Assembly: GCA_020630065.1 (NCBI GenBank)
Contig: JAHDCC010000005.1
Location: 1 to 64,000 of the forward strand
From: Acidimicrobiales bacterium
GTDB taxonomy: Bacteria > Actinomycetota > Acidimicrobiia > Acidimicrobiales > SZUA-35
Direction: 5' to 3'
DNA: 64,000 nt
The position numbers and the translations under genes are program-made. The notes under the pieces were generated by a model, which saw only the letters and a list, made by a program, of their open reading frames with translations, did no database searches and was not told the origin of the DNA. Positions 28,073 through 49,112 of this stretch are shown one piece after another (position 1 is the stretch's first letter; every line of letters starts with the position of its first letter).

Positions 28073-28193
28073 CAGCGCATCGATGGGCGATCGTTTAAAC
28101 CATAGATGTATAGACGGTGGGCGCTACTCGCCGTGACTAGCCCCCACCTTTTGTTTTAGGTAAGTTGTGGTTACTGCCGTTGAATCGAGGACA

Positions 28194-28439
28194 ATGAACG
28201 ATCAAAAGCCAATATCGAGGCAGACACCGAGTCAGTCGACGGCTGCACCTTCTCTAAATAGCCACAAAGGCGGATCTAGATCGATTCTTGTGGCCGCCCT
28301 TGTCGGGCTTTCTATGGCCCTTGACTGGGAGAATCATCGAGAAGAGCCAACGATCGTGGCCGAAGCGCCCGGCGGCCAAGATTGGCTCGATCTCGATGTT
28401 GGAGGATTAGAGCCGCTAGACCCCAACGATGACCTGTAG
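28194..28439 (+). CDS. Small hypothetical protein
   Basis: 81 residues from the ATG at 28194, preceded by GAGG at ~5 nt. A hydrophobic patch ILVAALVGLSMALDW (about residues 31-45) suggests a short membrane or amphipathic segment; the C-terminus is acidic (DPNDDL). Not recognised. It lies 80 nt upstream of the candidate selenoprotein on the same strand; a GGACCC/GGGTCC hairpin (28465-28482) lies between. Confidence 0.55.
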   Translation: MNDQKPISRQTPSQSTAAPSLNSHKGGSRSILVAALVGLSMALDWENHREEPTIVAEAPGGQDWLDLDVGGLEPLDPNDDL

Positions 28440-28482: not shown

Positions 28483-28505
28483 TAGGGAATAGTTCGGCGG
28501 CGGAG

Positions 28506-28511
28506 TAGGTT
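28506..28511 (+). promoter_or_regulatory. Possible -10 box of the candidate selenoprotein gene
   Basis: TAGGTT ends 8 nt before the ATG at 28520; compatible with a leaderless message. No strong Shine-Dalgarno is present. Confidence 0.35.
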
Positions 28512-28519
28512 TGAGTGAT

Positions 28520-28828
28520 ATGGCTATCGAGTTCGGCATTTCCGATGACGCAATTGATCTAGTTCGTTCTAAAGGCGGCAAGGCTGCTATCGACTTTATT
28601 TCGGCGGTCGGTTGAGGCAAAAGCACAGAGGTGTCGGTCGACACCTACCTAAAAGGCAAGAATACGAGCGGCTACCATCGAATTCGGCACGAAGATATAA
28701 CTATCCTTATCGCCCCTAAGCTTCTCAGCCAGGCTAATGAGGTTCATCTGGCCACAAAGCGTAAAGTCATGGGCCGTAAACTGGTCGCTGTAGCGTTCCA
28801 TCAGCACTCGGCGAGCTGCCGCCATTAG
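28520..28828 (+). CDS. Candidate small selenoprotein (in-frame UGA, HesB-like/CC-Se-motif type)
   Basis: A 102-codon reading frame with ATG at 28520, one in-frame TGA at codon 32 (28613-28615) and TAG at 28826-28828. The 31 residues before the TGA (MAIEFGISDDAIDLVRSKGG then KAAIDFISAVG) and the 70 after (GKSTEVSVDTYLKGK onward) read like one small alpha/beta protein. From memory its order (ISxxAxxxxxxKGG, xIDxIS, UGA at the Cys position, then a VSV strand) resembles the HesB-like or CC/Se-motif selenoprotein family. A bacterial SECIS-like hairpin lies 13-30 nt after the UGA. The alternative is a nonsense-mutated pseudogene, but the downstream frame is clean and the hairpin placed as required. 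Function unknown; probably redox or metal related. Confidence 0.7.
28629..28646 (+). promoter_or_regulatory. Candidate bacterial SECIS element
   Basis: A perfect 7-bp stem AGGTGTC/GACACCT with a GGTC tetraloop inside the reading frame. The first loop G is at 28636, 20 nt after the UGA; known bacterial SECIS loops have a G in the first two positions and lie roughly 16-37 nt downstream of the UGA. The E. coli fdhF SECIS also displays GGUC in its apical loop. Confidence 0.7.
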
Positions 28829-30708: not shown

Positions 30709-31749
30709 ATGAAGTTATATCTGCCCATACGTATAGGGGTACCGGCTCTTGCCGCTTCGCTCCTCCTTATCACCAGCTGTGGAACAAGTACCGAAACCAC
30801 TGCCAACGCCCAAGACCCTCTCAGCGAAGCGCTCGGTCTCGAGAGCGAACAAGACTTCTTCAGCGAAGACAACCAGATCAAAGCCCAAGAAGCGACCGCT
30901 TCATGCATGAAAGAAGCCGGATTCGAATACGTACCCGAGAACATCAGCGAATCCGTCGAAATATTCGAAGATTTTGACACCAAGGAATGGGCGGAAGAAT
31001 GGGGCTTTGGGGTTTCAACCCAGCGCTTCAGCCAAGACACAGTCGGACCAGGGCTAAAAGGCTACGACGACTCAGACTTTGAAGAACAACTAGAAAACAG
31101 CCCAAATCAGAAGATCCGAGAAGCTCTAAGCCCCGAGGACCAACAAGCGTACGACGAAGCGCTATATGGGTCTGGTTTCGATGAAGAGTTTACGGAAGGA
31201 GAAGACGTCGAAGAGGAGATCGACTTTAGTGACTTAGGATGCATGAACGCTGGATTTACTGAGGACGGCGCCTTTGGCTTCTTCGAGGAATTCCAAGACC
31301 AGCTCGAAGAGCTAGGAACACGCCTCGAGGCCGACTCCAGAATCGCAGAAGCTGAACAAGCATTGTCAGACTGTATACAAGAAAAAGGATTCGAATTCAC
31401 AAGCGAAGAAGACTACTTCGAAGAAAGCTACAACAAACTCGAGGAGCTGTTCCCTTACGAAGGACCTGACTTCGAAGAAATTGAGGAAGGCGAAATCGAC
31501 CCCGAAGAACTTGAAGGCGATTTGCCCGACGAATCCAGTTTCGAAGAATACGAAGAACCACCACTGACAGAAGAACAGAAAACCAAACTCGGAGAATTCC
31601 AGACCGAAGAGATAGCAACCGCTGTAGCCGCTCATGATTGCGGGCTATACGAAGGAGAGTACGCCGACACGATTCGCGAAATTGAGAACGAATACCTCTC
31701 CGATTTCGTCGAAACAAACAAAGAAGAAATCGAAAAGTACAAGCAATAA
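30709..31749 (+). CDS. Highly acidic secreted lipoprotein
   Basis: 346 residues. A signal peptide ends in LLLITSC-GTS, with lipobox Cys at residue 24. The mature part is extremely rich in Glu/Asp and Phe and contains two similar units built around conserved Cys: ATASCMKEAGFEYVPE (about residue 65) and ALSDCIQEKGFEFTSEE (about 220), each followed by an acidic Phe-rich stretch. Two further Cys (DLGCMNAGF and AAHDCGLYEG) may pair with them. Function not recognised. It is the first gene of an operon with an adaptor, an ATPase and a permease (12-48 nt gaps or overlaps), so it may be a partner or cargo-binding part of that exporter. Confidence 0.8.
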   Translation: MKLYLPIRIGVPALAASLLLITSCGTSTETTANAQDPLSEALGLESEQDFFSEDNQIKAQEATASCMKEAGFEYVPENISESVEIFEDFDTKEWAEEWGFGVSTQRFSQDTVGPGLKGYDDSDFEEQLENSPNQKIREALSPEDQQAYDEALYGSGFDEEFTEGEDVEEEIDFSDLGCMNAGFTEDGAFGFFEEFQDQLEELGTRLEADSRIAEAEQALSDCIQEKGFEFTSEEDYFEESYNKLEELFPYEGPDFEEIEEGEIDPEELEGDLPDESSFEEYEEPPLTEEQKTKLGEFQTEEIATAVAAHDCGLYEGEYADTIREIENEYLSDFVETNKEEIEKYKQ

Positions 31750-46319: not shown

Positions 46320-49112
46320 CTAACCGGTGTTACGTAACCCAGCCGCCACACCGTTGACGGTCAGAAGCAACGCCCTTCGAGCGCGTCTACCTGCTGTCTC
46401 ATCAGCCTCCGACTCATCCGACCGGGCAATTCGCAACAATGAGATTTGCAGCAAGTTGAGAGGGTCAAGGTAGGTGTCTCGAACCTCTAGTGTGCGCTGC
46501 AAGATTGGAAGGTCATTCAACACCGGCTTGCCGGTCACCCGCTCGACCGCGGCCACTGTTCGTTCAAACTCGGCGGCGATCATATCGAACAGGTGGTTAT
46601 GTTCGGTATCGACCAACGCATCTACGTATGCCTTAGCAATTCCCAGGTCGGTCTTTGAGATGGTCATTTCGACACTTGAGACAAACGTTTTGAAGAACGG
46701 CCAGTTTTTAAACATCGATTCGATCTCGTCGGTTCGGCCAGCAGCGAAGGCGGCTTCGAGCCCCGAGCCGACACCAAACCAACCGGGGACGATCTGGCGA
46801 GATTGGGTCCATCCAAATACCCACGGTATCGCCCGTAGATCTTCGATTCCCCCGGTCGCTCCCGCTCGACGAGCTGGACGAGACCCGATATTTAGGGCTC
46901 CAAGTTCTTCTACTGGAGTCGACGTTGTGAAATAGTCGACCAAACTCGGGTCTTCGATCAGTCCGCGATAGGCGGCGAACGACTCATTGGAGATCAGTTC
47001 CATCGTGTCGAACCATGGCTGAGCTTCAGCTAACGGGCGGGGTGTTGGAGCTAGCAGACGAGCTTCAAGCATGGCTGAGTAGGCCAGGTCCAGGTTGCGT
47101 CGCGCAAGACCGGGGCGAGCATATTTGTCAGCGATCACTTCGCCTTGTTCGGTGGTCTTCATTCCACCGGTGATAACACCAGATGGTTGAGACAAGATAG
47201 CAGCGTTCGCTGGTCCGCCACCGCGGCCGACAGAGCCTCCACGCCCGTGGAAGATAATGACGTCGATATTGTGTTCGGTCCCGATGTCTCGTAACGCTCG
47301 CAGAGCTTTGTGGATTTCCCATTGTGATGTCGCTATGCCACCGTCTTTGTTGGAGTCCGAGTAGCCGACCATTACTTCTTGGACGTTGCCGCGAAGTTCC
47401 ACCAGTTTGCGATATGACGGGTCACCGAGCAACTTGTTCATAGTTGTGGTCACGGACCGGAGGTCTTCAATGGTTTCGAATAGCGGCACGAAATCCAGAC
47501 GGGCGATACCGCGAGGAAGGTCGATCAGTCCAGCTTCTTTTGCGAGAACCGCTGGGGCTAGCAGATCGTCGGACCCTTCAGTCATCGAAACGATATAGCT
47601 TCCAATGATGTCGTCGCCGAAGCGGTCCATCTCTCGTCGCAAGGTGCGGAACAGGGCGAGAGGGTCCCCGCCAGCGGAGTTTGTTCCCGGTGGCGCAAAT
47701 GGACGACCGCTGCCGAGTTCGACACTCAACAGCTGGTGGCGTTTATCTCGGTCTTGTGGGTAGTTCACGCCAGCATCGGCGAATAGCTCTTCGATCGCCT
47801 GGTGATGGAACCTTGTGTGTTGTCGGACATCGAGTTCCGCTAGATGGAATCCAATTGTCGATACCAGTCGTTGGAGTTTCGCGAGACGACCGTCTGCGAC
47901 CACACCAATACCTGAGGTCCGTAGAGACTCTTCCAACCGTCGGAGGTCTGTTCGGAGCTCCTCGGGTGAACCATATGATGCCGGCTCTGAATTTGTGCGG
48001 TCGCTATGAGCAACCCCCCGCTCAGTTTGCAACAGTCGACGGTTAATCACTGTTGCTGCGATCCGATACGGCTGATCGGCGACCAACGGCGACAAGTCTT
48101 CGAGCAGCGACGGGAACTCTGTGCGTGTCTGTTCAATCCATTCGACCAGTTCATCAGACGGCGGGCGAATCCCCGCAGCGATGCTGACGTCTTGGGAAAG
48201 TCGAGCGACCTCGGATCGCAGAAGCCGTAACGCCCGGCCTCGATGCATTCCCAATACTTCCGATGTTACCTCAGGAGTAACAAAAGGGTTTCCGTCTCGA
48301 TCGCCTCCGACCCACGACCCGAACCGGATAGGAGCGAGATCGGACGGGACCGTTACTCCAACGTTTTCAGCTTGATTGTCAAGATCGTCCCAGAAGTTCG
48401 GAAGCGCATCTTCTACAAGTCGTTCGACGTAGAACAGAATGCTTCGAGCTTCATCCATAGGTGTTGGTTTCACGCTTCGAAGCTCGTCGCTTACCCATAG
48501 CAGATCTAGAAGTTCGTCGATGCGACGGTCGATTCGTAAATGGCTAGCTTTGGTCGCCGATGGCAGTGCCCGCTCTTGCAATAGTTCGGCTATCTCGGCT
48601 CGCTTGAGGAGGAAACTCTGGCGGGAGGCCTGGGTTGGGTGAGCAGTGAACACCGGACGATACTGGATTTTGTCGATTGCGGCTTTAAAATCTTCAACCG
48701 AAACATTGGCCTCTGCTGCTCGTGCGAACGTGTCTGGCAACTCACCACTGCCTTCGACCTTTACTCGCAGCTCTTCGACCCGGTGAACCTGCTCGGCGAC
48801 ATTGGCCAAGTGAAAGTAGATCGTAAATGCCCGGACGAGCAAGATGACTTCGACATCAGACGCCCGCCGCAGCACGTCGTCTAGCAATTTGGCTGACTGG
48901 AGATCACCGGACCGGACAGAACGAGAATGTTTCCGAACTTCTTCAACCAAGGAAAGGAAGTCAGCACCAACGTTTCGAGTGATCGCTTCACCGAGTTGCG
49001 TACCAAGACGTCGGATATCGGATCGCAAGATTTCTTCCCGCTCCTCTGCCAGTTCCGACTGGATCGTAGATGTCACAGCTGCCTCTTCGTGTGGGTTTTC
49101 GCTAGATTCCAT
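46320..49112 (-). CDS. ppc: Phosphoenolpyruvate carboxylase
   Basis: 930 residues, full length. The catalytic His is in VFTAHPTQASR (about residue 155), the second signature is VIIFHGRGGSVGRGGGP, and the C-terminus ends NTG as usual in this family. It makes oxaloacetate from PEP and bicarbonate. TACGCT ends 7 nt before the ATG, the divergent gene having its own box 8 bp further, so the two leaderless promoters lie back to back. Confidence 0.97.
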   Translation of the reverse strand: MESSENPHEEAAVTSTIQSELAEEREEILRSDIRRLGTQLGEAITRNVGADFLSLVEEVRKHSRSVRSGDLQSAKLLDDVLRRASDVEVILLVRAFTIYFHLANVAEQVHRVEELRVKVEGSGELPDTFARAAEANVSVEDFKAAIDKIQYRPVFTAHPTQASRQSFLLKRAEIAELLQERALPSATKASHLRIDRRIDELLDLLWVSDELRSVKPTPMDEARSILFYVERLVEDALPNFWDDLDNQAENVGVTVPSDLAPIRFGSWVGGDRDGNPFVTPEVTSEVLGMHRGRALRLLRSEVARLSQDVSIAAGIRPPSDELVEWIEQTRTEFPSLLEDLSPLVADQPYRIAATVINRRLLQTERGVAHSDRTNSEPASYGSPEELRTDLRRLEESLRTSGIGVVADGRLAKLQRLVSTIGFHLAELDVRQHTRFHHQAIEELFADAGVNYPQDRDKRHQLLSVELGSGRPFAPPGTNSAGGDPLALFRTLRREMDRFGDDIIGSYIVSMTEGSDDLLAPAVLAKEAGLIDLPRGIARLDFVPLFETIEDLRSVTTTMNKLLGDPSYRKLVELRGNVQEVMVGYSDSNKDGGIATSQWEIHKALRALRDIGTEHNIDVIIFHGRGGSVGRGGGPANAAILSQPSGVITGGMKTTEQGEVIADKYARPGLARRNLDLAYSAMLEARLLAPTPRPLAEAQPWFDTMELISNESFAAYRGLIEDPSLVDYFTTSTPVEELGALNIGSRPARRAGATGGIEDLRAIPWVFGWTQSRQIVPGWFGVGSGLEAAFAAGRTDEIESMFKNWPFFKTFVSSVEMTISKTDLGIAKAYVDALVDTEHNHLFDMIAAEFERTVAAVERVTGKPVLNDLPILQRTLEVRDTYLDPLNLLQISLLRIARSDESEADETAGRRARRALLLTVNGVAAGLRNTG

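Follow-up and report, generated by a model that had tools for sequence, protein, structure and literature searches.

The CC/Se motif family (NF041239) was first predicted in Moorella thermoacetica. It includes selenoproteins (PMC13188914 Table 1), and its motif is listed as CxxU (PMC13188914). The HesB-like selenoproteins (TIGR01911), with the listed motif UxGP, are of unknown function (PMC11097638). The A-type iron-sulfur carriers (IscA/SufA/ErpA, PF01521) possess three ligand cysteines, C...CGC, and in the solved structure of holo-IscA the cluster is bound by the first Cys together with the C-terminal pair (PMC5471300). We analysed a stretch of Acidimicrobiales DNA of 64,000 nucleotides (hereafter: the window) that contains a small gene with an in-frame UGA, and compared its product and 60 members of its family with these systems.

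NF041239 was the only family profile to give a significant match, which extends over nearly the full profile length in all 60 members. The window protein scores 28.4 bits, below the family cut-off of 40 bits, as do most members; a Chloroflexota homologue (L065) clears it with 41.8 bits. The CxxU motif is missing from the window protein: the Sec context is AVGUGK (in general GUG(K/G)), none of the 60 members has a Cys three residues before Sec, and the family exhibits instead a conserved Cys or Sec near the C-terminus. By the curated test the window protein is not a member of NF041239 and, judging from its sequence, is a divergent relative of it. TIGR01911 resembles it in comprising small Sec proteins of the distant-IscA predicted fold class, but there is no profile match from the window protein, and the UxGP motif does not occur in it. 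The likeness to PF01521 lies in the predicted fold, with Sec32 and Cys100 on or near the ligand cysteines. Unlike those carriers, however, the window protein has only two Cys/Sec positions (32 and 100), a single C-terminal Cys with no CGCG tail, very low identity and no Pfam match. A reading made earlier from the sequence alone had likened the protein to HesB-like or CC/Se-motif selenoproteins and had suggested a distinct branch, as the Sec lacks a neighbouring Cys; the sub-cut-off match to NF041239 and the predicted IscA/HesB fold agree with the former suggestion, the absence of CxxU with the latter.

Searches of Pfam, of PDB sequences and of plasmids reported no match for the window protein. 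The family called "hypothetical protein DG" (deep-Sep, motif GUxG) was considered and rejected, as the NCBIfam scan gave no match to NF049953, provided that the release used includes this profile. Among the 119 families and subfamilies of a 2026 review none matched beyond NF041239, in a comparison that covered the openly readable literature, with the NCBI annotation of the contigs concerned standing outside it. With due care as to novelty, the family appears to constitute an unnamed branch.

Reading frame and SECIS hairpin

The putative selenoprotein coding sequence (28520..28828, + strand) consists of 102 sense codons followed by a TAG stop codon (28826-28828), and homologues align with it end to end. 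Its sole in-frame TGA is codon 32 (28613..28615; Sec32), at which all Sec homologues have UGA and six others have Cys, and codon 100 (28817..28819) specifies the conserved C-terminal Cys, at the place of which eight Chloroflexota homologues have UGA. The translation reads MAIEFGISDDAIDLVRSKGGKAAIDFISAVG-U-GKSTEVSVDTYLKGKNTSGYHRIRHEDITILIAPKLLSQANEVHLATKRKVMGRKLVAVAFHQHSASCRH. GGAG at 28502..28505 (+) is, by its sequence, a putative ribosome-binding site, and an in-frame TTG at 28511, 5 nt 3' of it, is an alternative start. Small selenoprotein genes are missed or split under standard annotation.

The genomic neighborhood of the locus is not conserved: the neighbours vary between relatives and provide no functional clue. 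A possible ORF of 90 codons (28167-28439, +), immediately 5' of the gene, has no Pfam match. Another gene of the window (30709-31749, +), located 5' of a probable set of efflux/ABC genes, encodes a strongly acidic protein of 346 aa with a lipoprotein-like start, likewise with no Pfam match.

A candidate SECIS hairpin lies inside the gene (28629..28646, +), with the arms AGGUGUC (28629-28635) and GACACCU (28640-28646) forming a perfect stem of 7 bp around a GGUC loop (28636-28639) that starts 20 nt 3' of the UGA. Its predicted MFE is -12.1 kcal/mol (z -2.4; 3 of 200 shuffled sequences equally good). The published bSECIS model calls for a loop of 3-9 nt, a stem of 4-16 bp, a spacing of 16-37 nt, a G in the first two loop positions and an MFE <= -7.5 kcal/mol (PMC13188914), and the hairpin satisfies every one of these constraints. 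The frame with its single UGA, the loop, the stem and the spacing are all as the sequence-only reading had described them, and its view that position and loop type suit a bacterial SECIS holds against the model.

To estimate what chance would provide, we scanned the window for hairpins with at least 7 bp, a 4-nt loop and a correctly placed G, and found one after 2 of the 129 TGA codons in read-through frames, the selenoprotein's included. The other UGA (48047-48049, - strand) was rejected as a Sec candidate, since it is out of frame within a frame of 700 codons. The hairpin alone is thus weak evidence, and it is conservation that decides. This chance hairpin is also what favours regarding the locus as a pseudogene or as two small ORFs, with the UGA an ordinary stop and the hairpin fortuitous, a reading on which the homologues described below bear directly.

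The conservation of the putative SECIS across 60 distinct homologous loci far exceeds chance. The centre C-GGUC-G is unchanged in all 58 distinct UGA loci, and the stem has 6-7 uninterrupted pairs in 53 of them; in the remaining five, the second pair counted from the loop is mismatched. Silent sites within the hairpin are frozen (Val38 GTG, 57/57; Ser39 TCG, 50/50; Val40 GTC, 58/58): codons 38-40 show no silent variation and codons 37 and 41 almost none, versus ~1 bit at most other codons. In an alignment of 34 distinct sequences, built from exact references, 98.5% of the stem cells are paired, with changes on both sides in 3 of the 6 pairs, while slid controls reach only 29-68%. Compensatory changes were found in L084, L085 and L088, in which the protein segment VSVDT has become VAVAT with the stem still paired, and in L075, L077 and L089. 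The six Cys homologues, on the other hand, have lost the GGUC loop and retain no more than 4 contiguous pairs of the eroded stem, and their VSVDT is altered (VSVST, AAIDT, VAIDT, IAFDT). Because the motif changes where the hairpin erodes, we infer that VSVDT is preserved at least partly by the RNA. This combination of silent-site freeze, covariation and erosion upon replacement of Sec by Cys makes for an unusually clean SECIS record.

Sec/Cys exchange and the selenocysteine machinery

The search of 198 related genomes (own genome counted in) identified a homologue in 50: the gene has a single in-frame TGA in 47 of these and Cys in two, and in the last it is a fragment, cut by a contig end. Codon 32 in the 49 full-length homologues is UGA 47 times, Cys twice and never another residue. 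A phylum-wide search matched 12 of 396 genomes (four with Cys), and a scan of public genomes added further Acidimicrobiales, Chloroflexota and one Acidobacteriota contig. One in four of the sampled relatives has the gene; most of these are uncultured Acidimicrobiales, and its range extends to Chloroflexota and Acidobacteriota. Six distinct Cys homologues were found in total, which form two groups (in a tree of limited resolution), have the Cys exactly at position 32 and retain both cysteines, 32 and 100.

The protein is conserved on both sides of the UGA and the homologues align over their full length, in keeping with the earlier proposal that the two parts belong to one protein; the question it had raised, whether UGA lines up with Cys in homologues, is answered by the six. 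The UGA is held across phyla although the surrounding protein falls to 30-60% identity. This, the conservation of both flanks and the co-occurrence with SelA (see below) contradict the pseudogene or two-ORF reading, to which we attach very little probability.

In the own genome, SelA and SelB are encoded next to each other on one contig, and SelD (L012; contig C51, 40220-41137, - strand) contains an in-frame TGA of its own in the motif GAGUGCK, so that Sec is to be expected elsewhere in this genome too. The sequence-only reading had pointed to this machinery as a check on its proposal; the proteins, including a Sec-containing SelD, were found, whereas tRNA-Sec was not, in a draft of 81 contigs (95.4% complete) searched with the Rfam model and with a relative's sequence as a query. 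Nor did we find in this draft a tRNA gene beside selA/selB or selD, or the gene that is linked to selC in two relatives. The same search detected tRNA-Sec with the anticodon TCA in each of the 10 Sec-using relatives tested. As the draft is incomplete and several relatives (G006, G026, G018) have selC near the end of a contig, the missing tRNA-Sec is likely to reflect an assembly gap.

The missing tRNA could be taken to suggest that decoding of the UGA yields a different amino acid (e.g. Trp, or through a near-cognate tRNA). However, the aligned residue in the homologues without UGA is Cys in 6 of 6 cases, numerous homologues of the gene use UGA as their true terminal stop, the genome encodes SelA, SelB and SelD, and the SECIS has been conserved; decoding as an amino acid other than Sec is, in our estimation, highly improbable.

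SelA is present in all 47 UGA-form genomes of the 198-genome set and absent from both Cys genomes, which also lack tRNA-Sec. These two genomes (G004 and G014, with the Cys homologues L044 and L071 and eroded hairpins) belong to one genus, hence we score their loss of the Sec machinery as a single evolutionary event. By sequence comparison this genus is a clean case of Sec-to-Cys replacement, seen together with the loss of the machinery. Comparison of the homologues thus supports the Sec decoding, the SECIS, the Sec/Cys exchange and the conserved 32/100 pair, and we consider it almost certain that the UGA at 28613-28615 is decoded as Sec and the gene is intact. SelB and tRNA-Sec would decode this UGA guided by the downstream hairpin, to yield a protein of 102 residues.

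Predicted fold and the residues at positions 32 and 100

The predicted model of the protein (pLDDT 82, pTM 0.74) has SufA (Z 8.9 over 87 residues) and IscA (Z 7.9 over 91) as its closest structures. All chains with Z >4 are A-type carriers save one integrative model (9a4q), and the next unrelated chain has a Z of 2.0, although values of 8-9 are modest taken singly. Foldseek E-values are only ~1e-3 and the structural identity is 6-18%. The profile alignment against IscA-type proteins of relatives (E 5.5e-4, hhalign probability 30%) matches position 32 to the Cys in GGCSG, and position 100 to the CGCG tail. Altogether, the modeling suggests that the window protein assumes the A-type carrier fold (IscA/SufA/HesB), with Sec32 at the place of the first ligand, Cys35 of IscA, and Cys100 in the tail, at the place of the CGCG cysteines. 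The tail with Cys100 has a pLDDT <50, hence the model does not establish the closeness of residues 32 and 100.

We propose that Sec32 forms a pair with Cys100 (in some Chloroflexota both residues are Sec), because the two map to cluster-ligand positions and the C-terminal Cys is widely kept: with Sec counted, it is present in 54 of the 60 members and missing from six. The two residues could join as a reversible Se-S pair. We infer that the most likely chemistry is that of a redox or chalcogen-handling site, and give this an even chance. The same selenoprotein could instead be a metal or Fe-S carrier, with Sec32, Cys100 and a His-rich tail as ligands. This is a tentative reading to which we assign a chance of rather more than one in three: fold and ligand positions agree with IscA, in which the cluster is ligated by the first Cys plus the two at the C-terminus (PMC5471300), and His residues flank Cys100 in close relatives (tail HxH...CRH). 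However, there is one C-terminal Cys and not two, the tail His are missing from most order-level homologues, and the Sec/Cys exchange at both positions is equally compatible with redox chemistry. That a carrier fold has selenium at one of its cluster-ligand positions would, if true, be directly testable.

It is an evenly balanced proposal that the family forms a separate subfamily, in which Sec would replace the first cluster-ligand Cys of an IscA-like fold and pair with the C-terminal Cys; in Chloroflexota a second Sec, served by a SECIS past the stop codon, would turn this pair into a diselenide or into a ligand site with two selenium atoms. Codon 100 is UGA in eight Chloroflexota homologues (L058, L061, L063, L065, L066, L068, L069 and L070); the next residue is A, S or Q, the one after that H, and a stop codon comes shortly downstream. 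Two close relatives read UGC at codon 100. Hairpins with GGUC, GGUCG or GUU loops are found beyond the stop codon, 19-24 nt 3' of the UGA, in L061, L063, L065 and L068; the loop of L066 is less typical, and L058, L069 and L070 are doubtful. In a shuffle test only L061, L063 and L065 stand out. The sequences suggest that these eight homologues are double selenoproteins. In individual cases the UGA of codon 100 may be a genuine stop, a possibility opposed by its alignment with Cys and by the common tail that follows it.
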